A stretch of 20,316 nt of DNA from a virus, in the IMG/VR virus record IMGVR_UViG_3300013004_000236, positions 1 to 20,316 of that record; one strand, written 5' to 3'. The translations under genes and the position numbers were made by a program. Below the pieces are notes generated by a model. It worked only from the letters and a program-made list of their open reading frames with translations, was not told the DNA's origin and ran no database searches. Below are positions 1 through 20,199 of the stretch, piece by piece (within the stretch, counting starts at the first letter, position 1; each line of letters starts with the position of its first letter).

Positions 1-1995
1 AGTTGGTGTCTGTGTTTTAGTCGGTGTTTGTGTTTTGGTATTTGTAGGTGTCATGGTAGGTGTTTTTGTTGGTGATGGCGATTGTGGTAAACAATCAGAA
101 ATTCCACCGAAAATTCTTTGTATTTGTAATACATTTGAGTTCGAACTCAAGTTATTGTCATTTCTGTTATATTCGAAACAACCTTCAATAAGTCCGCCAT
201 TATCTGAATTTATTGTACCGTAAAAATATGTGCCAGGTAATAAATCTATTGTATTGTAAATAAGTGCGTCAGATGTATAATATTCAACTGAAGTAGTAAC
301 ATTAACCAATACTCTTGTTGTAGGACAGTCAAGTGTTGGGTCTAAGTATTCGAAACTGACTCTACCTGAAACCCCCACCTTATTTGCCGGAGTTGATGTT
401 GGCGTAGGTGTAACAGTTGGTGTTGGTGTTTGTGATGCATTGAATATTGAGAAATTCATACCCACCACATAAACCGGTGAGTTTGATGGGGTTGGTGTGA
501 CAAAATTATATGTAAAATCAAAATCTACGTTTTGAGCTGGTACCGGTGAAGATGGTGTGGGTGTTGGTTGAAACTGACAATCAAAATATGCCGCAAAGTC
601 GAAAGTAGAACAATCTACCGTTGGTGTTTCTCCACTACAATTTCCTACCGTAAAAATATGTGAATCTAAATCAGGACAATTTGAATAGCAAGGATATTTC
701 CCACTTAAAATAATGTCTCCTCCGTTAATTGGTACTAAACACCATTCATTACCATTAAAAATAATCAAACCAATCTGTGAAGTACCCCCCGAATAATAAG
801 GTCTATTATTGAAATCATCACCTGTTGGAACGTATGTCCCACTATAACCCGATATTGAAGGGAAAGTTGTATTTAAACAAAAACTATTATAAGGGCAAGG
901 TTCAGGTGTTGGTGATGGGGTTGGAGTTATAGTTGGGGTCGCTCTTGGCGTTCTTGTCGGTGTAGGTGTTGGTACGCAATCATTACAACTTATAAATGAT
1001 GGTGAACCTAAATATGTACCACCAGGTCCTCCAAATTGTAAGAAAGAATAGCAAACTCCATTATCAGTATATGTAGCACCCAAAAACGCAGTATCTGAAT
1101 CTACATTAAAATAAAATGTCGCACCATCCGAACACCTATAAAGAACCGCAGATTGTATTGAAGTTCTAGGGCAAATTTCACTAAAACAGTTAGATACTGA
1201 TGTAAATGTAACACCATTTGCATCATACAATTCACCCGCACCTGTGTATTCTACTATTGTCGCACAACCTTCGAACTCACCACTACCTGATATCAAATAG
1301 GTATTACCTGTTGTAGTTGGAATTCCGTTACCGGCAAATCTAAAAATATTACTTCCATCCTCACAACTTCTGAACTGTACTTGTGCTAAACCAGAAGGTG
1401 TTATACTTGGTGTAACCGTATTTGTAGGTGTTATACTTGGCGTAACAGTGTTTGTAGGTGTTTGAGTTCTTGTAGTTGTATTAGTTGGAGTATTTGTAGG
1501 TGTTTGAGTTCTTGTGGTTGTATTAGTTGGGGTATTTGTTGGTGTTTGTGTATTTGTAGGTGTTTGAGTTCTTGTTGCCGTATTAGTTGGGGTTGTTGTT
1601 TTTGTTGGTGTTCGTGAGTTAGTAGGTGTAACACTATTTGTAGGTGTGTTACTCATGGTTGGAGTATTAGTTCTTGTATTTGTAGGTGTCTGTGTTGGTG
1701 TTTGTGTGGTAGTCGGTGTTTGTGTGGTAGTCGGAGTAGGTGTTGGTGTAACAAAACAAGTTGATATTGCAATAATTACACCATCTGAGTCAGTTTGATA
1801 ACAACTTGTACCCCCTTGTGTGTAATCGGAGAAATACCCTGCACCCACTTTTGTACTACAAATCGAGTCACTATATAGTTTGGTTCCGACTACTAACGGG
1901 CTACTGTCCGAATAAAAACTGTCTGTGGAACTCAAAGAACACGCGTCCTGACAGCTACTACCGGTGTAAGCAAGTTTACTAGGAATACAAGGCAT
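1..1995 (-). CDS. Fibre/adhesin-like virion protein with Thr-Pro linkers (C-terminus beyond window)
   Basis: This is an open frame of 665 codons from an ATG at 1995 to the left edge with no stop, so the C-terminus lies outside the window. It alternates compact Cys-containing blocks with low-complexity Thr-Pro linkers. The N-terminal block (about residues 1-81) has six or more Cys and a pattern of 'LYSD...GYFSD...YQTDSDG', a style I associate with phage tail-fibre modules. A long linker covers residues 83-201 in units such as TPTNT, TPTQT and TPSIT. Further blocks at about 202-340 and 366-476 are separated by shorter linkers near 342-365, 477-484, 499-505 and 522-538. Another linker starts near residue 632 and runs to the edge. 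It stands alone, with its own promoter-like motif 18 nt upstream, and diverges from the small rightward gene at 2102. The bead-and-string layout suggests an extended fibre or surface adhesin that reaches the host. That role is inferred, as no catalytic motif or signal peptide is visible. Confidence 0.85.
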   Translation of the reverse strand, partial: MPCIPSKLAYTGSSCQDACSLSSTDSFYSDSSPLVVGTKLYSDSICSTKVGAGYFSDYTQGGTSCYQTDSDGVIIAISTCFVTPTPTPTTTQTPTTTQTPTQTPTNTRTNTPTMSNTPTNSVTPTNSRTPTKTTTPTNTATRTQTPTNTQTPTNTPTNTTTRTQTPTNTPTNTTTRTQTPTNTVTPSITPTNTVTPSITPSGLAQVQFRSCEDGSNIFRFAGNGIPTTTGNTYLISGSGEFEGCATIVEYTGAGELYDANGVTFTSVSNCFSEICPRTSIQSAVLYRCSDGATFYFNVDSDTAFLGATYTDNGVCYSFLQFGGPGGTYLGSPSFISCNDCVPTPTPTRTPRATPTITPTPSPTPEPCPYNSFCLNTTFPSISGYSGTYVPTGDDFNNRPYYSGGTSQIGLIIFNGNEWCLVPINGGDIILSGKYPCYSNCPDLDSHIFTVGNCSGETPTVDCSTFDFAAYFDCQFQPTPTPSSPVPAQNVDFDFTYNFVTPTPSNSPVYVVGMNFSIFNASQTPTPTVTPTPTSTPANKVGVSGRVSFEYLDPTLDCPTTRVLVNVTTSVEYYTSDALIYNTIDLLPGTYFYGTINSDNGGLIEGCFEYNRNDNNLSSNSNVLQIQRIFGGISDCLPQSPSPTKTPTMTPTNTKTQTPTKTQTPT
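1396..1455 (-). repeat. 30-bp in-frame tandem repeat (two copies)
   Basis: Copies at 1396-1425 and 1426-1455 differ at 3 of 30 positions, and each encodes ten residues of the pattern PTNTVTPSIT. The block directly adjoins the 42-bp repeat and lies at the C-terminal end of the long linker. Confidence 0.85.
1453..1596 (-). repeat. 42-bp in-frame tandem repeat (three copies)
   Basis: Copies lie at 1453-1494, 1495-1536 and 1555-1596. The first two differ at only 2 of 42 positions. The third is more diverged and is offset by an 18-bp insert made of the same short units. Each copy encodes 14 residues of the pattern PTNTTTRTQTPTNT. The period is a multiple of three, so gain or loss of a copy would keep the frame and change only linker length. 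Confidence 0.85.
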
Positions 1996-2012: not shown

Positions 2013-2025
2013 TTATAAATAATTT
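2013..2025 (-). promoter_or_regulatory. Promoter-like motif (TATTTATAA type) of the left-edge gene
   Basis: Read on the minus strand this is AAATTATTTATAA. It differs at one position from the AAACTATTTATAA core found upstream of the 8536 and 17601 genes. It lies 17 nt upstream of the ATG at 1995, in the divergent spacer between that gene and the rightward gene at 2102. No Shine-Dalgarno sequence separates it from the start. Promoter function is inferred from conservation and placement. Confidence 0.5.
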
Positions 2026-2101
2026 GAACTTCGTTTTATTTTTGTTTTAAAGATAAATGTTGAATTTTTTTTATAAACATCAATATATAAAATATTTATT
2101 T

Positions 2102-2278
2102 ATGATGAAATTACTAAAAACGATAAAGAAAATAATTAGAGAGTCCGAAGAGAGGTATAACAAGGCGTGTGATTACGGAGCACCTGTTGATGAGTTAGAT
2201 AAATTGGAAAAGAATTATAAAGATTCCTTGAAACTTTTAAAAATTTACGACGAAAAATTGTCTGAAAAGAAGCCCTAA
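2102..2278 (+). CDS. Small Lys-rich helical protein, function unknown
   Basis: This is the only rightward gene I accept, at 58 residues. It is rich in Lys and Glu with a heptad-like run of Leu and Ile (LLKTIKKIIRESEERY..., LDKLEKNYKDSLKLLKIYDEKL), so it is probably two amphipathic helices forming a helical hairpin or coiled coil. There is no signal peptide or Cys pair. I chose ATG 2102 (ATG 2105 is equally possible). The ATG at 2057 would add 15 residues rich in Phe, Tyr and His that fit the protein poorly. The upstream DNA is very AT-rich with no Shine-Dalgarno sequence. The stop overlaps the stop of the minus-strand gene at 2275 tail-to-tail. The family is not recognised. Its opposite orientation suggests separate timing from the virion genes, and being a chance ORF remains possible. 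Confidence 0.6.
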   Translation: MMKLLKTIKKIIRESEERYNKACDYGAPVDELDKLEKNYKDSLKLLKIYDEKLSEKKP

Positions 2279-8544: not shown

Positions 8545-8561
8545 TTTTTTATAAATAGTTT
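8545..8561 (-). promoter_or_regulatory. Promoter-like motif at the head of cluster B
   Basis: The minus-strand sequence AAACTATTTATAAAAAA is identical over 17 nt to the one at 17607-17623. It occupies most of the 37-nt gap between the PKD-domain gene and the 302-residue gene, ending 8 nt before the ATG at 8536. It is the only non-coding gap between 17601 and 2275 longer than a few bases. That placement argues for a transcription start or a conserved leader, but function is inferred. Confidence 0.55.
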
Positions 8562-8573
8562 TATTATTTTTTT

Positions 8574-9650
8574 TTAATCTTTTCTTACAACATTAAAAAA
8601 TCCATATCCGTAATTTTCCATGTCTCCAAGATTATCTACCTCACCTAATCTTTGTATTCTTTCATACGCACTATTTTTTCCTCTTTCGATATAAACATTT
8701 GTTTGTATTTGTGGTTGGTCTATAACACCCATCAAAACCTCTTGTTTTGTCATAGGATTAGATGATAAATTAAATTCTGTAAATCCGGAGGATTGCATGA
8801 AAAATATTGTGCTACCATCAGAATAATCATAATAATCAATATTCTGTATTGTGTATGCGGTAAATACGGGGTTTATATCGGTAACCATTCCAAAATATTG
8901 TCGATTCAAATAGATTGGTTTACCCAACACATATTGTTCAGAACCATACTGTTCCAAGCTTTCGAGTTGTGAATTCGATTGTCCCGACACAGTATAAGGA
9001 ACGCCAATATAATTTGACGAGAATTGTGATTCTAAGTTTTGGTTTGAATCTCCTGAAAATATGTAGTCGTAACTTATCGGTGTTGCTGACCAAGCGCCTA
9101 AGTTTGAAGTAAAATATGCAGTTCCTTTTTGATTACTAGCAACAACTTCTCTATAAGGTAGATTTATTGATTTGGTTACTCTAATGTCACCCCAAGGGTT
9201 CTTTTGAGATAATGTTATTTCGTAAGTCCCTGATTGTGTTGGGTAGGTATGTGAAATGTAATTTGGTGCAACATTTCTTATTGTCTCCACCACACCATCC
9301 CCCCACTCAACCGTATATGAAGATAAATCTAAAAATTTTTGGTATTGTTCTGATGTATTATATACATTAACTGTATAAGGATTTTGAGTTGTTGCTGAAA
9401 ATAAAAAATTTGTCACAACATCTTGTTGGGTAATCTCACCATCAAAAGGGTCATAATACCCTACATCATTTATATCTTCCGTAATTAGAATTGGAATTGT
9501 TAAACCTGTGAGTAAAGATGTTCCGTTGGTGTTTCCTGTCAATATTTGTGTCATGGCAGAATACACCCCCACACTTTGACCTTGATACTGTATCGTAGTC
9601 AAATCTCTTTGTATTGTTTCAGGTGATATTATAATTGTGTAATTACTCAT
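8574..9650 (-). CDS. PKD-domain virion protein, last gene of cluster A
   Basis: This protein has 358 residues. About residues 85-165 form a PKD-type Ig-like domain: VEWGDGVVE at 114-122 is the hallmark WGDG strand-turn, followed by SHTYPTQSGTYEITL at 133-147 and VTKSINLP at 158-165. PKD domains mediate protein or glycan contacts on surface proteins and are found in phage tail proteins. The flanking regions are not recognised: an N-terminal 80 residues rich in Thr and Ile, and a C-terminal 190 residues rich in Tyr, Ser and Gln. The ATG at 9650 overlaps the upstream stop as ATGA, so translation is probably coupled. It is the last gene before the 37-nt spacer. It is likely a baseplate-peripheral or fibre-attachment protein, inferred from domain and position. 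Confidence 0.83.
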   Translation of the reverse strand: MSNYTIIISPETIQRDLTTIQYQGQSVGVYSAMTQILTGNTNGTSLLTGLTIPILITEDINDVGYYDPFDGEITQQDVVTNFLFSATTQNPYTVNVYNTSEQYQKFLDLSSYTVEWGDGVVETIRNVAPNYISHTYPTQSGTYEITLSQKNPWGDIRVTKSINLPYREVVASNQKGTAYFTSNLGAWSATPISYDYIFSGDSNQNLESQFSSNYIGVPYTVSGQSNSQLESLEQYGSEQYVLGKPIYLNRQYFGMVTDINPVFTAYTIQNIDYYDYSDGSTIFFMQSSGFTEFNLSSNPMTKQEVLMGVIDQPQIQTNVYIERGKNSAYERIQRLGEVDNLGDMENYGYGFFNVVRKD

Positions 9651-10450
9651 GCTACTATAGGAGGGTTTACATATTCATACCATGTAATTGGTGTTGTTAT
9701 TCCCACTCTTTGGTTGTTCGTAATATCATGAACCGAATAATTCAAATTCACGTAGTCGCAAACAACTCTATAATAATAAAGTGTTATAACATCGAAATTA
9801 TATTTATCTCCGTTTATAGAAGATTGTGGTTTATTCATCATCTTTACAAACTCTCCTTTGTCCGCGTTATAAAACTTAGCGGTCATATAAAAAGTATTTA
9901 TCGGAACGAATGTTAAATTTTTCAACCAATAAATAAAAAATCCTTCTCTATCACCAATATAATCCAATTTGAATTTTGGTATTTTGATTTTTACATTTTT
10001 ATTATTAACTATAAAATCTATCGTACTTCCCTGTTGTGTAGGTATGATAATTGTAAAATAATTTACTTGTGTTTTTGCATCTACAGTATCATAGAAATCT
10101 AACTTAAAAAATGAATTTGAAAAATTGTTTCTGAAATAATATATGTCTTCGGCGGTAAATCCTTCACCTAAATAGCTTTGGTTCCAACTCGCGCTTTCAT
10201 TTAATGAACCACCCGAATAAAAATAAAAGTCATAATTTATGTCTGTCTTTTGTGTTGTTGGTTCGGGTGCATGTGGGAATCTATTTACCTCGAAATCATA
10301 TCCTGTACCTATTACTTGTTGTACGACATCTTCTTCATATAACTCTATCGACTGGTCTTGACCCGTATAATCCCACTTTAATTCTATTGGAATATCAATC
10401 ATTTTGTCTGTCGAACCGCTAAAAAGTATTCTATAACTATTCACATCCAT
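9647..10450 (-). CDS. Hypothetical virion protein of cluster A
   Basis: The product is 267 residues from the ATG at 10450. A TTG codon directly upstream (10453) could add one Met, but ATG is the better choice. It is very rich in Tyr, Phe, Asp and Asn (NYDFYFYSGG, FFIYWLKNLTFVPINTFYMTAKFY), which is typical of beta-sandwich phage structural proteins, and it has only one Cys. No known domain is recognised. It overlaps the preceding 569-residue gene by 14 nt and the next gene by 4 nt (ATGA), so it sits inside a tightly coupled string. The hydrophobic stretch near residues 175-195 is aromatic and interrupted by charge, so I do not call it a membrane segment. In T4 this location holds outer wedge proteins, but homology to any of them is not shown. 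Confidence 0.8.
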   Translation of the reverse strand: MDVNSYRILFSGSTDKMIDIPIELKWDYTGQDQSIELYEEDVVQQVIGTGYDFEVNRFPHAPEPTTQKTDINYDFYFYSGGSLNESASWNQSYLGEGFTAEDIYYFRNNFSNSFFKLDFYDTVDAKTQVNYFTIIIPTQQGSTIDFIVNNKNVKIKIPKFKLDYIGDREGFFIYWLKNLTFVPINTFYMTAKFYNADKGEFVKMMNKPQSSINGDKYNFDVITLYYYRVVCDYVNLNYSVHDITNNQRVGITTPITWYEYVNPPIVA

Positions 10451-12146
10451 CAATCAAAGGTTTTACAGGTTGGTTTATTCCATTTAAGAAGTTATTAGCG
10501 TCTTTACCCTCAGGGAAGAATCTAAAAATAAAATCTTGAAATGGATAATGGGAATTGTTAAGATAAGGGTAATCAACACCTCGTCCGAATTCATCTCTGA
10601 ACCCATATAAATATAAATCTCTCCATCTAAACTCTTGGTCCGATTCAGAATAAAACGCATAGAAGGGTATTTGGTCTATATTATCCAAACTACCTGTTTC
10701 AATATAATCTGAAAAAACCCTAATATTCATTCCGTTATGTGGTTGGTAATAAAAACCGTTTTCATTTGAATTTGGTGTTGGTGATATTTGGAAGTTATCG
10801 GAATTGTATTTAACTTTATGATAATATTTGGAGATTACCCTTTCGGTCTGCTCGTAATCATTCCACTCACAAAAATCTCCTTCTATCACATCATCTACAT
10901 TTAATTCGTTGTTATAATAAAATGTTTTAGTTACACCATTTGAATCTGTTTTAACATAAGAAGATGTACCTATATTTGAATTTGAATTACTGTTCGTGTC
11001 GTCCCACCAACTATTTTGGGTCTCTGTAATATTGAACTCCCACCCCTGACTGAGACCGACGTTATTAAAATAGGGTTTGTTGAAGTATCCCGAATATCCT
11101 TTATTAACAACGGTCAAAAATAATTCCGAGACAGGTCTTTTTTGATTATCGAGTAACCCCTGTAAGTTGATATCTTTTCTTGTCGTTACAGTATAACAAT
11201 TATTACTATTTTTTTGAGCACATCTTGAAACAAGATTTGGTGTTAATGAACTAAAGAATAATTTTTTATTATTCCCGAAAGGTGTTTGTTGAAACCCCGT
11301 TTTAGTCATTATCAAATCGTCAACACCTATTAAAACTTTATGTTCTCTTACATAATATTTTGACCGGCTTTCCTCGAGAATATCGGGGAAAATAACTCTT
11401 TTGAATTTACCTTTACGGTTGTTGTTAAAAGTAGAACCAGTATATCCAAGATTGTATATATTGAAAACATTTCTTTCACTTTCAAAAAGTCCGTTACCCA
11501 AAGAATAAACTTCAAATATTTGTGTGTTGTTATAAGTAATTGATAATTCGACTGATTCCCCCACTTGTAATCCGTGAGGTGCAATACACTCAAATGATAT
11601 TAAAGGGTCTCCATTTATTTGTATATTTGTTATTTTGAAAGGTATTCCGTCCTCTGCAACCCAAGACACACTTTGGTTATTAAGTTGATACCTCAATATT
11701 TTTTTATAATCGTTGTTATATGAGTATGTTATGTAATAACTCCAATTATAGGTATATGCGCTTTTAGCAACATAATCTATATGTTGGTCTGTAATATTTG
11801 GTCTGAAAAAATCAAACTCATAATACTGTGGTGTTCCATACCAAATTTGAGTTGCGAGCGAATTTTCAGGTTCAAAATAATATAGATTATCCAAAAATGG
11901 TTTATAGTTTGTTATTCCAATATATTTGTTATCAAAAACATAATTCAATTGAAAGGTCGGTCTGAACACTTCGCAAGCCTGTCTTTCGTCGTCATAAACC
12001 TGTGGTAAAGAAACTGTTGTAATTCTATCAAATTCAGTTCCAACCTGACTTTTGTTATCAAAAGATAAAATAACCTCTTGGTCTACACTTGGTGCCGACT
12101 TATACCTGAGATTACTTGGAATAATTCTAAAATTATAAAATTTCAA
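10437..12146 (-). CDS. Hypothetical virion protein with TTG start, cluster A
   Basis: This 569-residue protein is rich in Asn, Tyr, Phe and Asp, with many aromatic beta-type segments (PQYYEFDFFRP, NSWWDDTNSNSNSNIG, FRWRDLYLYGFRDEFGRG). No catalytic motif, membrane segment or known domain is seen. The frame opens after a TAG only two codons upstream, and the only usable start before residue 200 is TTG at 12146. This lies inside the end of the 1822-residue gene with a 14-nt overlap. An AGGAG sits immediately before the TTG, with no spacer, so ordinary Shine-Dalgarno initiation is doubtful and coupling to upstream translation is likely. It corresponds by order to the gp8 position of T4, but I see no sequence reason to equate them. 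Confidence 0.8.
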   Translation of the reverse strand: MKFYNFRIIPSNLRYKSAPSVDQEVILSFDNKSQVGTEFDRITTVSLPQVYDDERQACEVFRPTFQLNYVFDNKYIGITNYKPFLDNLYYFEPENSLATQIWYGTPQYYEFDFFRPNITDQHIDYVAKSAYTYNWSYYITYSYNNDYKKILRYQLNNQSVSWVAEDGIPFKITNIQINGDPLISFECIAPHGLQVGESVELSITYNNTQIFEVYSLGNGLFESERNVFNIYNLGYTGSTFNNNRKGKFKRVIFPDILEESRSKYYVREHKVLIGVDDLIMTKTGFQQTPFGNNKKLFFSSLTPNLVSRCAQKNSNNCYTVTTRKDINLQGLLDNQKRPVSELFLTVVNKGYSGYFNKPYFNNVGLSQGWEFNITETQNSWWDDTNSNSNSNIGTSSYVKTDSNGVTKTFYYNNELNVDDVIEGDFCEWNDYEQTERVISKYYHKVKYNSDNFQISPTPNSNENGFYYQPHNGMNIRVFSDYIETGSLDNIDQIPFYAFYSESDQEFRWRDLYLYGFRDEFGRGVDYPYLNNSHYPFQDFIFRFFPEGKDANNFLNGINQPVKPLIDGCE

Positions 12147-15100
12147 CTCCTAAATATTTTTTATTAAATTTATCCAAGGCGTTACTTCCTCTCACTAAAC
12201 CGAAATAAAAATGGTATGGTGCACCAACGGTAACCTTATAACCATTTTCTAAAACTTGACCCCCTCTAATATCCCCTTCAAAATAGTAACCTGTGTTTGG
12301 TGCCGGCGCCGGTGTAACATTAAATATGTAACCTTTTTGAAATTGTGGTATATTAACTTCACCTCTATAATACGCAGAAACTTGTGATAATCTATCCAAA
12401 GATTGATAACCAACAACAGTAAAATCATTTTTACTTGTTAACCAATCATTCTTTTCATTTCCAAAAATACTGCTGGTATTTGTATTATTTATATTCCATT
12501 TATATAATGGAACGACTTGTGTGAATACAGGTAAATTATCGTAAAGACCGGGAAGTGAATTATCATCTCTTATTATTCTTCTCGGTGAGACATAATCTCT
12601 AGTCTGTGTGTTTGACGAAAAGAATATACCCATTACTTTATCACCAACATAGTATGAGTTGTTAGCAGTTGACCCAGTCGAATAATCATAATTTTCGAAA
12701 TCAAAATCTTCAACGCCTATTTCCGAATTTATAGATATCGATTGTGCATAGTCACCATCAAATTTAGATTTTGGTCTTGAAAAGAATGTATTAACCGATG
12801 CGTCACCAAGACCTAATAGTTGGGCGATAAAAGACGAACTTATCTGTCTTGATATTATAAATAAATTAAGAATATTAGACACATCTTGATACGATGTTTG
12901 AGACATGTTTTGCATGTTATAACCAAAATACTCATCAGAACATGTTAATTCGTTTGCAAATTCATCTCTTGGTCCCAAATCCATAATTGTTGTTGGAAAT
13001 TGGAGTTGTAATTTATTTCTTTTTGTTTTTTGTTTAGGAGCAAATCCAGTAAATCTTCCGTTATTACCGTTATATGGTGATGACCTATAAAAGAAATTAT
13101 TTGTTTTTGGGTGTAAAAACACAACATCTCTACATAATTTGTTAAACGGCACATTAAACGTATTTGTTGTTGGGTCGGTACCAAATAATCTTTTATTTTT
13201 AAATGGAAAAGCGAAAAGAGTTCCATTAACCCAGTTGTTCGAAAACGTGTGCCCGAAAACACCCCGACATGCCGCAAGATTCACTTTGAATCTAGTTTTC
13301 CATTCACCAAGTTGTTGGAAATCTCTTAAGAGTCTCAAAATAGGTACATCAACAAAAACATAACACCCGTCTCTCACAATACTTGGTTTTTCGTAACAAG
13401 GGTCTCCCGGTGGTTTGACATCAAAGTTTTCGCCATTACCTTCATAACATCTCAAAGGAACGAGTCCTTGGCAAGTAAATGTAGACAAAACCTGTTCCTC
13501 AAATTGGCTTGGTTCATCATCCACATTATCCCCATTTGAATACCCATCGGTTTGATTTGGATAAGTGTTTACAGAATTACCTTCGTCATCAAATAAGCTA
13601 ATATTGAAACCTCTGTTCTGCGCTAACATAAATGTATTGTTTTCGAATCCATCTTCCCTATAACTTGAAACCGGCAATCTATCGGTTCTCATAACAACTT
13701 TTTTTGTACCTCCTAAAAATTGAGTTGTAATTCCCGAAGTGTAAACAGGTGAAAAATAAATAAAGTCACTATCAGTCAAACGTCCGTCACCATCACTAAC
13801 AACACTAGCGTTTGTAAAAAAATATGAACCACCCTCAATATATTCATTATCATAATATCCTCTATGTCGTCTATCACTCGATAAGTTAATCCAATAGTTT
13901 TGATTTGTTGGATAGTAAAAAGGGCTATTAAATAAACCCATATCAGGTTCAACATAGTAATTATTTATCGGATAATTAGACAAGGCATACCAGTTCACAC
14001 CCCCGTTTACCCCCAAATATCCGGCATTAGTTCTAACCTTATCACTACTTAACGTCGACTCATTTTGAGTTGGGTTTACTCGGAAAGGTACGTTTGTATT
14101 ACTCCAATTACTTAACGCCTTTTCATCCAAAGCCGAGTAATCAGAAATAATATTTGATTGGAATGTTTCAAAACGATTTGTGGTATCATAAACAAATGAT
14201 TCAAAGAAGATTCCTCTGTTGTTTGCGGTTTCACTAGTATCATCGGTTGTCGTAATTTCATCGTGTCTTGGAATTTTAAATCCTGGTTGTACGGGTACAT
14301 TTAATTTATATTGCCCGTTAACTTTTATACTTCCAAAATTTTTACCAAATAATTTACTAATATCATATTCAACGTTTTGTCTTGCAGAGTGTGGGTCAAC
14401 TCCTCTAACCAAAAAAGCAATTATAATCTTTTTTTGTTCTGAAATTGTGTATATTGGTCTATAACATGTAAAAGTTTTGTAAGTATAAATCCCATAAACC
14501 GTTGGCGCATTTTCCCAAATTACTTGGAAATTGTCAGAGAATCTATATTTTAAAGACTTATAGTATTCTCGATTTCCTGTTGTTCCATATACTGTAGAGT
14601 TATATTGTCCTGTACCAACTGCAGGATTTAAATCGACAAAATTACCATAAGTGGTTGCAGTGATAACTTGGTAATATTCCATATCTGTTGGGAACTTTTG
14701 AACGACCAAGTCCACAAATTCCCCTGATGAAACAGTAAGTGCATTAATTGTTATATCATCTAGCACATCTTCTCCTCCAATGCTTGAACCTAAAATAGTT
14801 ATTGTGTCTCCGTCTTCATAGTCATATCCAACATTATTTATTATAACTGAATTTGAATTTATTGTATTTGAGGTATTGATAACCAAATTGAATGTTGCAC
14901 CAACACCTTTACCATCAGTTGTACCTGTTAATCCGACATAATTACCAACATTTGCGGTGTCTCCATCCCAATCTGAACTTATACTTAACAATTTACCTTT
15001 TGTTTGCGGAACAACACACTTAGTTAGTGCCGAAGTTTGGTCTACAATATATGTAACAGGTGTTGCAAGACTATTTGGGTTATTCGGGTCTGCGTAATTT

Positions 15101-17601
15101 ATTGTAACTGAATTTAGATTTATTGGGTTACCCGTTGCGGCCAAAGTAACTTGTTCCTCGCCATCGACGTTTAAGTATTTGACCTCAGTGATTCCCGACA
15201 AGTTTATATCTTTTGACTTTTCTATATTAGTAAAACTTAAAATCGCACCAGGTTGGAAGATATCCTCATTACCCTCGTCAACCAACATTGTTAATACATT
15301 ATCCAAATGGAACTTTCCAGGATTTAGTGTTGGATTTATACTTGTTTTAATTTGATTCCATCCTCCGTAAGGTCCTGCTTCGGGCATATTATTGAAATAT
15401 TTACCCTTAACATTAAATAAGTTTATTCTCTCACTTAAAGTCAAATCGAGTGAATGATAGTAGTTAGTTCTATTTGTTTCATCCGCGGAGCAAGTACCTG
15501 GTATTACCCCCGGCATTCTTCTAAAATATCCATCTTTCAAACTACCTGATAAAATTTCTTGTAATGCCGGTAGTTGCGTACTATTACAACCAGCACCTGT
15601 TACAATAATTTGACACGCGTTAGAATCTACACCACCTATGAATGGGTCGTCTTTACATAATTGCTCATCAAATAAATTGGAGAATGTGTTTGGACTTTGT
15701 GTATCCGCAAGTAATGACAAACTTTGTCCTTCCGCACTTCTTTTTGCAAACTCCGAAGCTTCACTATTACCATCTGTTAAATCCTCACTAGTACAATTAC
15801 ACATTTCACAATCAGGATAAGTGATAATTGGTATTTTAATTTTTTTGAAAGGGTCACCTATTTTATTAAATAACTCCCTTGGACTTTGTGGTTTTACACA
15901 ATTCATTCTAACCCCAGGTATTGCATCAATCGCTTTACAAATACCATAAATAAACCACGCGATTATGGAATAAACAAAAACAAATAATAACTTAAACAAC
16001 GGCCATATGAACGCCAATATATGTAATATCGGTATTAAATATAAAAAGTTTAATGTATTAAGTACAAGTAAGAAATTTATTATCGTATATAAAATATCAA
16101 AATTTCTAACACCGTCATTTGTTGGAAACTTATAATTTGTGCTATCACAATTAGTATCCGTTATTTGTTTTATACCTATGAACCTGCCTCTGTTTGTTCC
16201 TTTGTGGTAGTTATCAATTAAACCAGAAACAGTATAAACTTTATTATATTGAAATTCAAAGAATCTATCCTCACAATCAATTGCCGATTGTATCATTCTA
16301 TCTCCAATAGTTGTACCTGTATTACCGTAATCACTCCAATCTAAACTAAAAGCATATGATTTTTCAAACTGGTCGTAAACCTGACTCGATGGAGATAATC
16401 TTGGGTCATTTGTTGGTTGAGTCCACCCATATTCTCTTATGTTTGGTACCAAGAAATACGCCCTCTTAATAGGTGCTTCAAGCGTCTCTGCCTGTTTCCA
16501 TTTTATTTTGAATCTATATTTTGCTTTCGTAGGTATACCCACACTTGGGTCACTTGAAAAAACCCTTTCTCCGAATTCATTAACCGATACATAATCCAAG
16601 TTCATGGGTAAATCTACTAACCATGAGCCATCGGGTTCTATAACATCATTACCCCCATCAAAACTAAACTGTTCTAATATTGGTCTACCGTATTCATCAT
16701 CATTTATTGTTTGTCTTATAGATATAATTTGTCCCGGCCCCGCAACTAAGTTACAAAGATTACCCATTTCAGTTGCGGGCTTGCACTGTATTCTCAAAGG
16801 TTTCGTATCAATTGATGAAATCAAAGACCCCATGAATACTGCAGTTGGTTGGATGTCGATATTCGCATCATCTCTCAAATCAAAGTCACATCTACTTATA
16901 GCAATTTGGCAAATATCGGGGTCTCCCCATAAAGGTGCAACATCTATTGATTTTGTTAAGGAAACAATTTGTGGTAAACCATCCAAATTATTTGAACTTC
17001 TGAAAGAAGGTCCTGACACTTGGGCTTCTGTTGCTCTACCCATTCTAATTAAATCTTGTGGTGTCAAAGAGAATTCACCTATGTCTGATAAATCTAAATC
17101 TAAAAAAACTGTTTGAATACCTAATGGTACCCCCATAATCATATAATCACCACTCTCATTTGTTTTGACAACAAACTTGTAGTACTTATCAAAAATTTCA
17201 ATTGCAGTATTGTTTGTTAAAACATCTGTAACGGATGGAAATGTTCCTGTTGGTGTGTGATTAGTATAACTTTTTTCGTATGGTAATAAGTTATATCTAT
17301 AACCATCTTCATTTTTATCGTCAGGTCTTTTGTAAGGATATATTGAAGTTATTACGGGGTTTGATTCGTCAATAGCCTCGATTGGTATAAAAACAGATAC
17401 TTTCGCATTCGGTATACCGTAACCATTATTCGCAGTGATTCTACCTACAACAACTCCATACTGAGAACATGACTTAGTATATATGTCCTCTTGTTGTATC
17501 TTTAATGAAAGAATCTCCAAAAAATCAAAATCTTGTTCGATTTCGAAATTTATAGTTTTGTTGATTCCTAATTCTGTCCTTATTCTGTGGTTGATTCCCA
17601 T
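12133..17601 (-). CDS. Giant baseplate-region protein with internal hydrophobic segment
   Basis: This 1822-residue protein is the largest in the window and follows the gp6-like gene, the T4 gp7 position (T4 gp7 is about 1030 residues). Residues 48-75 (VVVGRITANNGYGIPNAKVSV) and 142-170 (KTNESGDYMIMGVPLG) look like two halves of a carboxypeptidase-regulatory-like beta domain split by an insertion. Residues 503-555 are almost wholly hydrophobic, long enough for two membrane helices. A Cys cluster follows at C598, C601 and C603. Residues about 893-940 (VGATFNLVI, then GYDYEDGDTITI) resemble a small beta module seen in marine T4-like structural proteins. The rest is Asn/Tyr/Phe-rich with no enzyme motif. 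It has its own promoter-like motif 5 nt upstream of the start region and overlaps the next gene by 14 nt. A structural role is likely, and gp7 equivalence is only positional. Confidence 0.8.
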   Translation of the reverse strand: MGINHRIRTELGINKTINFEIEQDFDFLEILSLKIQQEDIYTKSCSQYGVVVGRITANNGYGIPNAKVSVFIPIEAIDESNPVITSIYPYKRPDDKNEDGYRYNLLPYEKSYTNHTPTGTFPSVTDVLTNNTAIEIFDKYYKFVVKTNESGDYMIMGVPLGIQTVFLDLDLSDIGEFSLTPQDLIRMGRATEAQVSGPSFRSSNNLDGLPQIVSLTKSIDVAPLWGDPDICQIAISRCDFDLRDDANIDIQPTAVFMGSLISSIDTKPLRIQCKPATEMGNLCNLVAGPGQIISIRQTINDDEYGRPILEQFSFDGGNDVIEPDGSWLVDLPMNLDYVSVNEFGERVFSSDPSVGIPTKAKYRFKIKWKQAETLEAPIKRAYFLVPNIREYGWTQPTNDPRLSPSSQVYDQFEKSYAFSLDWSDYGNTGTTIGDRMIQSAIDCEDRFFEFQYNKVYTVSGLIDNYHKGTNRGRFIGIKQITDTNCDSTNYKFPTNDGVRNFDILYTIINFLLVLNTLNFLYLIPILHILAFIWPLFKLLFVFVYSIIAWFIYGICKAIDAIPGVRMNCVKPQSPRELFNKIGDPFKKIKIPIITYPDCEMCNCTSEDLTDGNSEASEFAKRSAEGQSLSLLADTQSPNTFSNLFDEQLCKDDPFIGGVDSNACQIIVTGAGCNSTQLPALQEILSGSLKDGYFRRMPGVIPGTCSADETNRTNYYHSLDLTLSERINLFNVKGKYFNNMPEAGPYGGWNQIKTSINPTLNPGKFHLDNVLTMLVDEGNEDIFQPGAILSFTNIEKSKDINLSGITEVKYLNVDGEEQVTLAATGNPINLNSVTINYADPNNPNSLATPVTYIVDQTSALTKCVVPQTKGKLLSISSDWDGDTANVGNYVGLTGTTDGKGVGATFNLVINTSNTINSNSVIINNVGYDYEDGDTITILGSSIGGEDVLDDITINALTVSSGEFVDLVVQKFPTDMEYYQVITATTYGNFVDLNPAVGTGQYNSTVYGTTGNREYYKSLKYRFSDNFQVIWENAPTVYGIYTYKTFTCYRPIYTISEQKKIIIAFLVRGVDPHSARQNVEYDISKLFGKNFGSIKVNGQYKLNVPVQPGFKIPRHDEITTTDDTSETANNRGIFFESFVYDTTNRFETFQSNIISDYSALDEKALSNWSNTNVPFRVNPTQNESTLSSDKVRTNAGYLGVNGGVNWYALSNYPINNYYVEPDMGLFNSPFYYPTNQNYWINLSSDRRHRGYYDNEYIEGGSYFFTNASVVSDGDGRLTDSDFIYFSPVYTSGITTQFLGGTKKVVMRTDRLPVSSYREDGFENNTFMLAQNRGFNISLFDDEGNSVNTYPNQTDGYSNGDNVDDEPSQFEEQVLSTFTCQGLVPLRCYEGNGENFDVKPPGDPCYEKPSIVRDGCYVFVDVPILRLLRDFQQLGEWKTRFKVNLAACRGVFGHTFSNNWVNGTLFAFPFKNKRLFGTDPTTNTFNVPFNKLCRDVVFLHPKTNNFFYRSSPYNGNNGRFTGFAPKQKTKRNKLQLQFPTTIMDLGPRDEFANELTCSDEYFGYNMQNMSQTSYQDVSNILNLFIISRQISSSFIAQLLGLGDASVNTFFSRPKSKFDGDYAQSISINSEIGVEDFDFENYDYSTGSTANNSYYVGDKVMGIFFSSNTQTRDYVSPRRIIRDDNSLPGLYDNLPVFTQVVPLYKWNINNTNTSSIFGNEKNDWLTSKNDFTVVGYQSLDRLSQVSAYYRGEVNIPQFQKGYIFNVTPAPAPNTGYYFEGDIRGGQVLENGYKVTVGAPYHFYFGLVRGSNALDKFNKKYLGVEIL

Positions 17602-17606
17602 TACTC

Positions 17607-17623
17607 TTTTTTATAAATAGTTT
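17607..17623 (-). promoter_or_regulatory. Promoter-like motif at the head of cluster A
   Basis: The minus-strand sequence AAACTATTTATAAAAAA is identical to the 17-mer at 8545-8561 and ends 5 nt before the ATG at 17601. It lies in the 84-nt spacer after the gp6-like gene, next to a perfect palindrome. Repetition of a 17-mer in two of the few real gaps makes chance unlikely even in AT-rich DNA. Whether it is a promoter element or part of the leader is not settled by the sequence. Confidence 0.55.
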
Positions 17624-17624
17624 A

Positions 17625-17640
17625 TGGTAAAATTTTACCA
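17625..17640. promoter_or_regulatory. Perfect 16-bp palindrome beside the cluster A motif
   Basis: TGGTAAAATTTTACCA is fully self-complementary with no spacer. It sits one base upstream (in the sense of the minus-strand genes) of the promoter-like 17-mer. It is not followed by a T tract on either strand, and its stem is short and AT-rich, so a terminator is a poor reading. An operator for a dimeric protein is possible. No second copy was noticed in the other gaps. Confidence 0.35.
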
Positions 17641-17685
17641 CTACACCAAATAAAAAAATAGTAAGTAAAACAAATAAATAAATTA

Positions 17686-19521
17686 TTAAGAGAAAGTTAC
17701 GGATTGGAAGTTTTTAACTGAAACTCTAATATCTTTTCCTGGATATCTGATTTGATATATTTGGTTTGGTTCGGCAAACAAAGTATCATCAATTGGTTGT
17801 ATTTGTCTTGTTTCAGGATTACTATAAGTCATAGATGTTTCAGATGAAGAATACTGCCCTCCAACATTATTGAATACTTGTAAATCTGTAACAGTAATAA
17901 CTCCGTTTTGATTTTGTATAATACTCTTTAACTCTGAAAGGAATACATTTTGACCTAATTGTCTTGTTGAAGGGTCAAAGTATGCGGTTACATTATTTAT
18001 AACATCTGATATAATTTGTCCTGAATTTTGCGTTGCTTGTAATACAACTGAAACTGTAACTGATAAATCGATTACATCCGCACTCTTTACAGATATATAA
18101 TCGTTCATCATTCTATAATTCGAAAGATAATTTGCAATATTTTGTTTTAATGTATTTGATACCAAGTTTGTTAATTTACCTGAAGTATCATAAGATAATA
18201 TTTGAATATCTACTTTATTATCTAATTCTGTAATTGCAACTTTTGCAGGTGCACCGAATTGTGCGGGCATCGTTCTAATTAAAGCTTCATAATCTTGAAC
18301 GGTAACCGCTCTTTTCTGTGCTGCGAAGTTGAAGGAAACAAAGTTTCTGACTTCCTCTGTTGTAGGTGCGTTTGCCCCGCCCACAGCTGCGGTTACGTTA
18401 TTACATCTTAAAGAACCAACAACAGAAGTATTTGTTGTCTCTGACGGACCATTAACAAAGAATGAAACCGTACCAATTTGGTTTATAACATTAACACCTA
18501 AATTAGTCGCTAAACCACCACCGACTCTATATTGAATAAATAAAGTAGAGTTTGGTGTTAGGGTTGAACCTAATGAAAAGTTATTAAAATAAGATTGTAA
18601 ATTAAGAGGGGTACCAAGATTTGTAAACTGATTTAACGCGTCTTGCGCTGAGTTTGTACCTCCTCCGAAAACGATTCTTTTGAAACCTTCGGGTGTAAAC
18701 TCAGATATGAACCTGTTACTTGTTTGAATATATTTACCCACTTTAGTACCTGGTTGGTCTGAAACTTTGGTTGGGTCTTCTACAAAGATTCTATCTTCTG
18801 CCAATGCATCAACCTCATACCATCTATTTGCGGAACCTAAAAACTCGGCAGCGGTTGGAACGTTCCCGTAGTCCGTACCATTTTTTAACAAAACACTTGT
18901 AATACCTAACACATTCTTTTCAGGTAAAAATAATTCAAAGAATGGTCTAACATCACCGGCATTTATAATTCTTTTGAATACCTTTGTAATACCATTAACA
19001 ACCAATTCTCTTTTTGTAATTGTATAGTTGATAAGAACACCATTACTATTAAAGTTCGGTATTTTTAATCTATTCAAATTACCTTGTGAATTGTATGGAG
19101 ATGCAAAATCTATATCGTATAAATTTTCAAATGCCTGTCCCGCCCCTTGAATCTGTGACCCACGGTACAAAATACCCAAATATCTTTCGTCTTCTTTATC
19201 ACCAAAAGCAGGTACGGTAATTGAGAAATCAACAAGAGATACCGAAGGTCTTAACCCCGGAATCTTCAATCCGTATGTTCTGGCAATATTATATATAGAG
19301 GACTTTTGTTGAGCATAAAGTAATACCGTCTCTTGTATACTTCTATCAATATGATAATGTAAGTTGTCCGCAACTGCTGCGTTCAAATCCAAGAACACAG
19401 AAAATACAGAAGCATCACTAAAATCTTGTATTAAGTCAGGATAGTAAGCCCTTACGTAGTTATATAGTTCGAGCCTTATTCCTTCGAAATCCCTTACTGT
19501 ATATGATATTTTGTTTGCCAT
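17686..19521 (-). CDS. Baseplate wedge protein, gp6/baseplate-J-like
   Basis: This 611-residue protein is close to T4 gp6 (660). The N-terminus (residues 6-92) has the usual wedge pattern: YTVRDFEGIRLEL, then DLNAAVADNLHYHIDRSIQE and a LYAQQKSSIYNIARTYGLKIPG helix-turn. The C-terminal part from about 387 has the baseplate-J signature: FAAQKRAVTVQDYEALIRTMP, then VAITELDNKVDIQIL and a region with NIANYLSNYRMMNDYISVKS leading into repeated beta strands. In T4, gp6 forms the iris-like ring joining wedges and drives the baseplate shape change at contraction, which is the expected role here. The ATG at 19521 follows the gp25-like stop by 5 bases. An 84-nt spacer follows it. The family assignment is by pattern but strong, as neighbours and order agree. 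Confidence 0.9.
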   Translation of the reverse strand: MANKISYTVRDFEGIRLELYNYVRAYYPDLIQDFSDASVFSVFLDLNAAVADNLHYHIDRSIQETVLLYAQQKSSIYNIARTYGLKIPGLRPSVSLVDFSITVPAFGDKEDERYLGILYRGSQIQGAGQAFENLYDIDFASPYNSQGNLNRLKIPNFNSNGVLINYTITKRELVVNGITKVFKRIINAGDVRPFFELFLPEKNVLGITSVLLKNGTDYGNVPTAAEFLGSANRWYEVDALAEDRIFVEDPTKVSDQPGTKVGKYIQTSNRFISEFTPEGFKRIVFGGGTNSAQDALNQFTNLGTPLNLQSYFNNFSLGSTLTPNSTLFIQYRVGGGLATNLGVNVINQIGTVSFFVNGPSETTNTSVVGSLRCNNVTAAVGGANAPTTEEVRNFVSFNFAAQKRAVTVQDYEALIRTMPAQFGAPAKVAITELDNKVDIQILSYDTSGKLTNLVSNTLKQNIANYLSNYRMMNDYISVKSADVIDLSVTVSVVLQATQNSGQIISDVINNVTAYFDPSTRQLGQNVFLSELKSIIQNQNGVITVTDLQVFNNVGGQYSSSETSMTYSNPETRQIQPIDDTLFAEPNQIYQIRYPGKDIRVSVKNFQSVTFS

Positions 19522-19526
19522 TATTA

Positions 19527-19994
19527 TTAAATATTTATTATGATAAAATCACTTTGTGAAAAAGTGGCAGAATCTGTTGAGTAATCTATTTTTATTTTTG
19601 CCGTATAATCTGCGGTTCCTTTACCAGGTACTCTGAAAATGTAGGGTAAATCATCAGATACTATGTTTTGAGCCCCTATCGGTCCTTCCTCATCTTGTGT
19701 GGCAGCTTCGATTGAAATATTATTAACAATCAAGTTTGGCATAAAAGTGTTGATTGCGTCTCTTATGTCTGATTCTATCGCACTGAAAGTTAAACCATCA
19801 TACGGTTCAAAAATAAATTCATATATTCTTGTTCCAAAAGTTGGTAAATAATATCTTGAGCCTTTCCTTGTAAGTATTAAATGTAGAAGTGCCGCTCTTA
19901 CTTCGTCTTTCTGAAGTTCAGTAAGTTGTAAATAATCCCCCTTTTTGGAATCTCTAAACGGAAAATTTATACCATAAGTTAAACCATCTGCCAT
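19527..19994 (-). CDS. Baseplate wedge protein, GPW/gp25-like
   Basis: The product is 155 residues (T4 gp25 is 132). It shows the family pattern: an N-terminal YGINFPFRDSKKGDY, a helix ELQKDEVRAALLHLILTRKG, then SRYYLPTFGTRIYEFIFEP (residues 46-64) with the conserved G-x-R and FEP, a second helix from about 70, and closing beta strands with YTAKIKIDY. GPW/gp25 proteins join the sheath-facing inner baseplate to the gp6 wedge. Despite the older 'lysozyme' label, the family is structural. The direct neighbour is the gp6-like gene five bases downstream, as expected for a contractile tail. The leader (TATTTATCAAT before the ATG) has no Shine-Dalgarno sequence and carries a weaker form of the recurrent motif at 19997-20005. 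The same fold also occurs in R-type pyocins, type VI secretion and extracellular injection systems, but the wider context favours phage. Confidence 0.93.
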   Translation of the reverse strand: MADGLTYGINFPFRDSKKGDYLQLTELQKDEVRAALLHLILTRKGSRYYLPTFGTRIYEFIFEPYDGLTFSAIESDIRDAINTFMPNLIVNNISIEAATQDEEGPIGAQNIVSDDLPYIFRVPGKGTADYTAKIKIDYSTDSATFSQSDFIIINI

Positions 19995-20013
19995 ATTGAT
20001 AAATATATCTACA

Positions 20014-20199
20014 TTATTTTTTTATTGTAGTATTACCTTTTTGTCCTTTTGGCTCGAACGCACAGTGTCTACAATTATTTCCGCAGCAATATCCCCTATC
20101 AATATGGTATTGTTCAGTAAATACTAATCTTGTTCCATCCATGTAATAATGAGAAGGGAGAAGTTTAAACTTCTCCCCATCTTTTTTTTCTTTTTCCAT
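20014..20199 (-). CDS. DUF5522-like small Cys protein
   Basis: This 61-residue protein has the pattern HYYMDGTRLVFTEQYHIDRG at 17-36, then GYCCGNNCRHC with C38, C39, C43 and C46 and H45. This matches, from memory, the DUF5522 family of short proteins common in Bacteroidota: an 'F-T-E-x-Y-H-x-x-R-G-Y-C-C-G-x-x-C-R-H-C-P' core, with A in place of the usual P after the last Cys. The four Cys suggest metal (zinc or iron) binding, but the function of the family is unknown to me. Residues 1-12 and 51-61 are Lys/Glu-rich tails. Its ATG lies 3 bases after the stop of the 37-residue gene, and it precedes the gp25-like gene by 19 nt, so it is probably transcribed with the baseplate genes. Whether it is in the virion is unknown. 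Confidence 0.85.
   Translation of the reverse strand: MEKEKKDGEKFKLLPSHYYMDGTRLVFTEQYHIDRGYCCGNNCRHCAFEPKGQKGNTTIKK

Follow-up and report, generated by a model that had tools for sequence, protein, structure and literature searches.

Why should an identical 17-nt sequence stand at the heads of two separate gene clusters of a phage, with a shorter relative of it ahead of a third? The DNA examined here (the window) comprises an entire IMG/VR record (20,316 bases) that seems to be a fragment; it carries minus-strand genes in tightly packed runs besides genes for gp25-like and gp6/J-like baseplate proteins. The copies reported by the first-pass annotation were confirmed: AAACTATTTATAAAAAA occupies positions 8545-8561 and 17607-17623 and AAATTATTTATAA positions 2013-2025, all on the minus strand, and the two long copies open the gene runs 17601-8574 and 8536-2275 as described. 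The sites lie in true gaps, since all three fall inside the 326 bases (1.6% of the window) outside the gene set used. Exact matches to AAANTATTTATAA occur in the window at these three sites only, all on the minus strand, and AAACTATTTAT occurs twice, both times in gaps. What is special about the motif is its position and strand rather than its raw count, as a loose search (two mismatches or fewer) returned 24 matches versus 20.9 expected, i.e. no enrichment. Of the 24 copies of TATTTAT in the window, the five in gaps all lie on the minus strand, which encodes most of the genes. The window holds 19 repeated 17-mers versus a mean of 0.4 per window in first-order Markov simulations; only one of the 19 contains TATTTATA, and most of the others probably derive from the gene at 1-1995 (minus strand), which encodes a large Thr-Pro repeat protein, phrog_15511-like, and is open at the window end.

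TATTTAT is enriched and conserved upstream of genes in related jumbo phages

A search of IMG/VR with the gp6 protein returned more than 500 relatives, including records of 317 kb (L013, here G001), 134 kb and 105 kb, and further searches found relatives' records of 309-321 kb; the phage of the window is related to jumbo phages of ~310-320 kb. In G001, no 7-mer was as over-represented in the 45 nt upstream of ORFs as TATTTAT, which preceded 81 ORFs versus 13.3 expected from an order-2 Markov model and 30 for its reverse complement, and it was enriched upstream of ORFs in the relatives G002 and G003 as well. The motif was not equally frequent inside genes or on the opposite strand of the relatives: within 0-24 nt of G001 starts we counted 74 copies against 23 of the reverse complement, and TATTTATA was found 43 times versus 9 for TATAAATA within 24 nt of starts. 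Coding-strand copies ahead of ORFs are strongly enriched in two relatives that are near-complete, and TATTTAT precedes 70-80 genes per large phage (74 and 76 predicted promoters in G001 and G010). As AAACTATTTAT occurs only three times in the 317-kb relative while TATTTAT is found genome-wide, we rejected the full 17-mer as the functional unit; judged from these sequences, the functional core is TATTTAT, a genome-wide element.

Comparison of 200 reciprocal-best G001-G010 protein pairs (median identity 63%) revealed the box before both orthologues in 39 pairs versus 11.8 expected (P = 1e-23); two words used as controls, ATAAATA and TATAAAT, were common to only 4 and 2 pairs, respectively. Three sites of the window are likewise conserved in dozens of relatives. 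Samples of Bacteroidota chromosomes (11 pieces, 197 ORFs) showed no excess of TATTTAT (6 versus 10 for the reverse complement), and in the same 11 pieces TAnnTTTG was found 44 times versus 14. The enrichment was also absent in two distant gp6 relatives, LR756508 (over 100 kb) and Microcystis phage Mel-JY01 (over 42 kb), indicating that the box is not tied to baseplate genes. The bacterial bin L436, which has the thyA closest to that of the phage, gave no gp6 match.

The sites of the window

The predicted promoter AAACTATTTATAAAAAA at 17607-17623 (minus strand; core 17613-17619) heads the run 17601-8574, its core 11 nt before the ATG (17601) of an 1822-aa gene, at the edge of the spacing exclusion zone described below. 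Exploring 36 distinct orthologous gaps downstream of gp6, we found AACTATTTAT to be invariant and the remainder of the gap variable; variants carrying AAGTATTTAT exist in L038, L046, L049 and L047, and the gap of L005 (~20 bases) is without the site. The second copy of AAACTATTTATAAAAAA, a predicted promoter at 8545-8561 (minus strand; core 8551-8557), heads the run 8536-2275 and places its core 14 nt before the ATG (8536) of a 302-aa gene. AACTATTTAT precedes this gene in 20 of 22 distinct orthologues, L034 and L041 being without it. When viral contigs were scanned for AACTAAACTATTTATNA, 45 of 80 among the matches listed stood directly upstream of the 302-aa or the 1822-aa gene, and those 45 were 13-17 nt from the ATG. 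The third predicted promoter, AAATTATTTATAA at 2013-2025 (minus strand; core 2015-2021), lies 19 nt before the ATG at 1995, and its like-placed counterpart in G001, at 300741-300747, lies 17 nt before its gene. A divergent TATTTAT at 2093-2099 (plus strand), 5 nt before an ATG at 2105, is a putative promoter of a predicted leaderless gene whose product begins MKLLKTIKK; the true start of this rightward ORF (2057-2278, plus strand) is probably 2105 and not 2057. The orthologue in G001 reads TATATTTATGATATATG, with the start 5-6 nt after TATTTAT.

At the other end of the window, the gene of the gp25-like baseplate wedge protein (19527-19994, minus strand; PF04965, phrog_261) is the first of a predicted leaderless late unit that includes the gene of the gp6/J-like baseplate wedge protein (17686-19521, minus strand; PF04865, phrog_219). 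Its putative promoter, TATATTTAT at 19999-20007 (minus strand), ends 4 nt before the gp25 ATG at 19994, so that the gp25-gp6 mRNA is predicted to be leaderless. This site (TATATTTATCAATATG, minus strand) had been listed among weaker forms of the motif; a form of the motif does precede gp25, but it is not a weaker one, as 42 of 45 distinct relatives have TATATTTAT at 4-6 nt from the ATG and keep it although the preceding gene and the spacer differ between relatives. Directly before gp25 the window encodes a 61-aa DUF5522 protein (20014-20199, minus strand), possibly of host origin; because the sequence before gp25 varies between relatives, its gene may be present in some of them only. An extra TATTTAT just past the gp6 stop codon (17674-17680, minus strand) is partly conserved, and we claim no function for it.

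Directly upstream of the 17607 site, at the 3' end of the gp25-gp6 unit, lies a hairpin (17624-17641, minus strand; TGGTAAAATTTTACCA, core 17625-17640) that ends 1-2 nt before TAAACTATTTAT. Its arms covary: across 29 clusters the pairing score was 13.97 within sequences versus 11.61 +/- 0.47 with arms exchanged, and the folding energy -6.4 versus -4.8 kcal/mol. This arm-swap test was used instead of RNAalifold, which returned no pairs for the gp6-gap alignment, probably owing to differing loop lengths and misaligned 5' arms. The hairpin shows no clear U-tract. As the predicted start lies downstream of it, it would form the tail of the gp25-gp6 mRNA; it is perhaps a terminator, a 3'-protecting structure or the 5' leader of a second promoter. 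A sequence just upstream of the hairpin, TTATNATTTAA, is also conserved (gp6 gaps of L004-L083).

Spacing of the box suggests leaderless and short-leader transcripts

When the 74 G001 sites were aligned, no -35 signal emerged, every position in that region carrying less than 0.1 bit of information; the bases immediately preceding the box were mildly biased towards A/G, and 4-5 nt beyond it A stood at 0.70-0.75 with C near zero. The distance from box to start codon was two-peaked, 4-6 nt or ~12-17 nt, with almost none between: in G001, 27 sites were at 4-5 nt, 4 at 7-11 nt and 32 at 12-16 nt (P = 3e-7 against uniform), and in G010, an independent genome, 36 were at 4-6 nt, none at 7-12 nt and the rest from 13 nt up. 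The exclusion was clear only in these two genomes; it was weaker in G002, and the smaller samples of G003 and of the cultured Flavobacterium phage immuto did not show it. Whether spacing was short or long was concordant in 37 of the 39 orthologue pairs, in which the 20 nt upstream were only 57% identical.

This pattern fits transcripts that start ~5 nt after the box and are leaderless or carry short leaders. With such a start, an ATG at +1 would give a leaderless mRNA, an ATG at least 8 nt further on would permit normal initiation, and at distances between neither would work, which would account for the two peaks. The spacing hints at a transcription start roughly one helical turn downstream of the box, and leaderless mRNAs are likely for the 4-6 nt class. 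In Flavobacterium johnsoniae, the -7 element is followed at 4-5 nt by the transcription start, a geometry consistent with that proposed here, and leaders exceed 10 nt in 87% of predicted transcripts; Bacteroidota are without Shine-Dalgarno sites and favour A at positions -3 and -6 (PMC6847099). We lean towards a late promoter that is built into the context of the start codon, such that about a third to a half of the sites, 27 of 74 in G001 and 36 of 76 in G010, would give truly leaderless messages, the leader class would be conserved gene by gene and leaders of ~2-7 nt would be selected against. If true, this would be leaderless expression on a large scale in phages with a cultured relative that infects Flavobacterium, where most mRNAs carry leaders.

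Genes preceded by the box and a second promoter class

In G001 the box precedes the genes of the sheath (34 nt), tube (33 nt), portal (29 nt), prohead protease (13 nt), endolysin (16 nt), gp25 (5 nt) and a head-tail adaptor-like protein (5 nt). No box was found within 45 nt of G001 gp17 and gp6, and TATTTAT was missing before the major capsid gene in each of ~60 distinct relatives (L136-L215). In ~60 distinct relatives the capsid gene is instead preceded by a long leader of similar style, poor in T and rich in A/C; the sequence suggests that this gene relies on a promoter further upstream and on a special leader for translation. Many sites stand before genes to which no function is assigned, and one stands before a NadR-like gene that is possibly not late, so that 'late' could mean 'late plus middle'.

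The phages also carry a host-like class, TTTG-N17-23-TAnnTTTG. In G001, 29 of its 65 matches lay outside ORFs versus 0 of 24 for the reversed control, and the figures for G010 were 31 of 73 versus 2 of 28. Apart from one gene at ~100 kb, the genes headed by this class in G001 lie at 120-290 kb, away from the identified structural genes, and include those of a peptidase, an HNH endonuclease, a ClpP-like protease and a phosphoesterase. In phage immuto, whose gp6 is 28% identical, TATTTATA stands without a -35 element before the terminase, portal, sheath, tube and tape-measure genes. A second class, TTG-N22/23-TATTTAGGTA, was found at 18 of 19 genes, mostly small; in 18 of the 19, TTG stands 22-23 nt before TATTTAGGTATCAATAATTAAAAC. 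This second motif is likely an early promoter distinct from the late box.

Candidate factors that could recognize the box

A gp55-like protein of ~250-260 aa is conserved in G001 (92371-93153), G002 and G003, and a more distant one is encoded by immuto. Its best match was to phrog_234, the T4 late sigma family, and this match was weak (E 0.001-0.008 in genome searches; 0.005-0.6 per protein); Pfam holds no model for T4 gp55. A profile of 11 relatives had a single PDB match at E<=10, T4 gp55 itself (7d7c, E 0.084). The AlphaFold2 model of the protein was of low confidence (pLDDT 61) and Foldseek searches with it gave no match at E<=0.001; many of the leading matches were sigma factors, individually insignificant, and the best domain-level match was region 2 of sigma-E bound to the -10 element (probability 0.96, TM 0.67 of target). 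A T4-type sliding clamp gp45 (phrog_223) was not found in four relatives, in a search for which T4 itself was positive, and a divergent clamp is possible. RNA polymerase beta' (PF00623) was present in all 14 control genomes and not found in the four relatives. A search for single-subunit RNA polymerase was positive in no control genome and was therefore uninformative. A further protein of G001 (265 aa; 277416-278213, minus strand, within L099) clearly belongs to the sigma-70 family and is a rival candidate reader of either promoter class. The gp55-like and sigma-70 genes are absent from the window, and what is said here of the factor is drawn from the relatives. The box is likely late and read by a gp55-like sigma.

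A probable phage-specific late promoter and its alternatives

The first-pass annotation had proposed a phage-specific late promoter, a reading supported by the position and strand of the box, its conservation between orthologues, the lack of a -35 element, the absence of enrichment in sampled Bacteroidota chromosomes and the structural and lysis genes that it heads. From such features it appears near certain that the box is a promoter; late timing, start sites, leaderless translation, the sigma factor and the host phylum we infer. We consider it highly probable that TATTTAT is the core of a -35-less late-gene promoter specific to phages of ~310-320 kb with probably Bacteroidota hosts, read by a predicted gp55-like sigma and starting transcription ~5 nt after the box. 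At gp25 the core would be lengthened to TATATTTAT, and at the two cluster heads to AAACTATTTAT. Host RNA polymerase would be redirected to the box by a phage sigma factor that is a distant relative of T4 gp55, and transcription would begin ~5 nt downstream. Genes with an ATG 4-6 nt from the box would thus yield leaderless mRNA, and the remaining genes A-rich leaders of ~8-30 nt, as would suit hosts in which Shine-Dalgarno sites play no part.

An early, middle or constitutive promoter read by a host sigma factor, the box being a degenerate -7 element without a -33, seems improbable to us. If the ATG marks the start, the box has T-12, A-11, T-8 and T-6 in common with the host TAnnTTTG, and many sites lie outside the structural region; yet position -7 is A, -5 is rarely G and there is no -33. 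The box is not enriched in host-type DNA, and a separate host-like class exists, which in the structural part of G001 is limited to the one gene at ~100 kb, the two classes being kept apart in immuto as well. Even less probable is that the box is a signal for translation initiation, a Kozak-like element of the A/T-rich Bacteroidota leader, and no promoter. The box does lie within 20 nt of start codons and is followed by A-rich sequence, and Bacteroidota are without Shine-Dalgarno sites and favour A at -3 and -6 (PMC6847099). However, such a signal would be expected at one preferred distance, and we found two with an empty zone between; moreover the box itself is T-rich, showed no excess in the Bacteroidota chromosome samples and is missing from the major capsid gene and, in the window, from genes within the overlapping clusters. 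We give least credence to an RNA-processing site or RNA element in which the hairpin and AACTATTTAT at the gp6 gap are cut or bind a regulator. The hairpin with covarying arms that ends 1-2 nt before TAAACTATTTAT is in its favor, but visual inspection reveals none at the sites before gp25 and the 302-aa gene, where the box is equally conserved, and the divergent use at 2013 and 2093 fits start sites better.

Relation to known promoters

The late promoter proposed here works like that of T4 (gp55/gp33/gp45; PMC2988020), with a single ~8-bp TATA-like box, no -35, AT-rich sequence downstream, tens of copies before structural genes and a distant gp55-like protein encoded. It is not to be filed as one unqualified, because its box is not TATAAATA and no clamp was found. 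The box is TATTTATA here and TATAAATA in T4, and it lies 4-6 or ~12-17 nt from the ATG, so that leaderless mRNAs are predicted, whereas in T4, passed through the same check, TATAAAT lies mostly 25-29 nt before late genes. The earlier remark that the T4 box appears only on the opposite strand is right, and is better read as two boxes that differ at two central positions and are mutual reverse complements. Variant late boxes of KVP40, 44RR, S-PM2 and Aeh1 were likewise inferred in silico from upstream motifs (PMC2988020); the Aeh1 box has also drifted, but at its first two positions and not at two central ones. The primary promoter of Bacteroidota, TTTG/TAnnTTTG (sigma-ABfr; PMC6847099), has a similar distance from box to predicted start and differs in its -33 and in the bases at -7 and -5. 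The box was correctly held not to be the usual -7 box, as TATTTATN is without T-7, G-5 and any -33, and the phages carry a TTTG/TAnnTTTG-like class separately. Late promoters of the jumbo phages phiKZ and AR9 (PMC5312081) are also short, phage-specific motifs very near the start site; those need phage multisubunit RNA polymerases, whereas no RNAP beta' homologue was found here. In the open-licence literature searched we found no earlier description of a late promoter of a Bacteroidota phage.

From the box, probable late transcription units can be read off in an abundant group of phages, most of them uncultivated. Late transcription of the T4 type would also extend to phages of Bacteroidota, bacteria with an RNA polymerase that recognizes unusual promoters. 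The box further predicts many leaderless late mRNAs, which can be tested in the cultured relative, Flavobacterium phage immuto.
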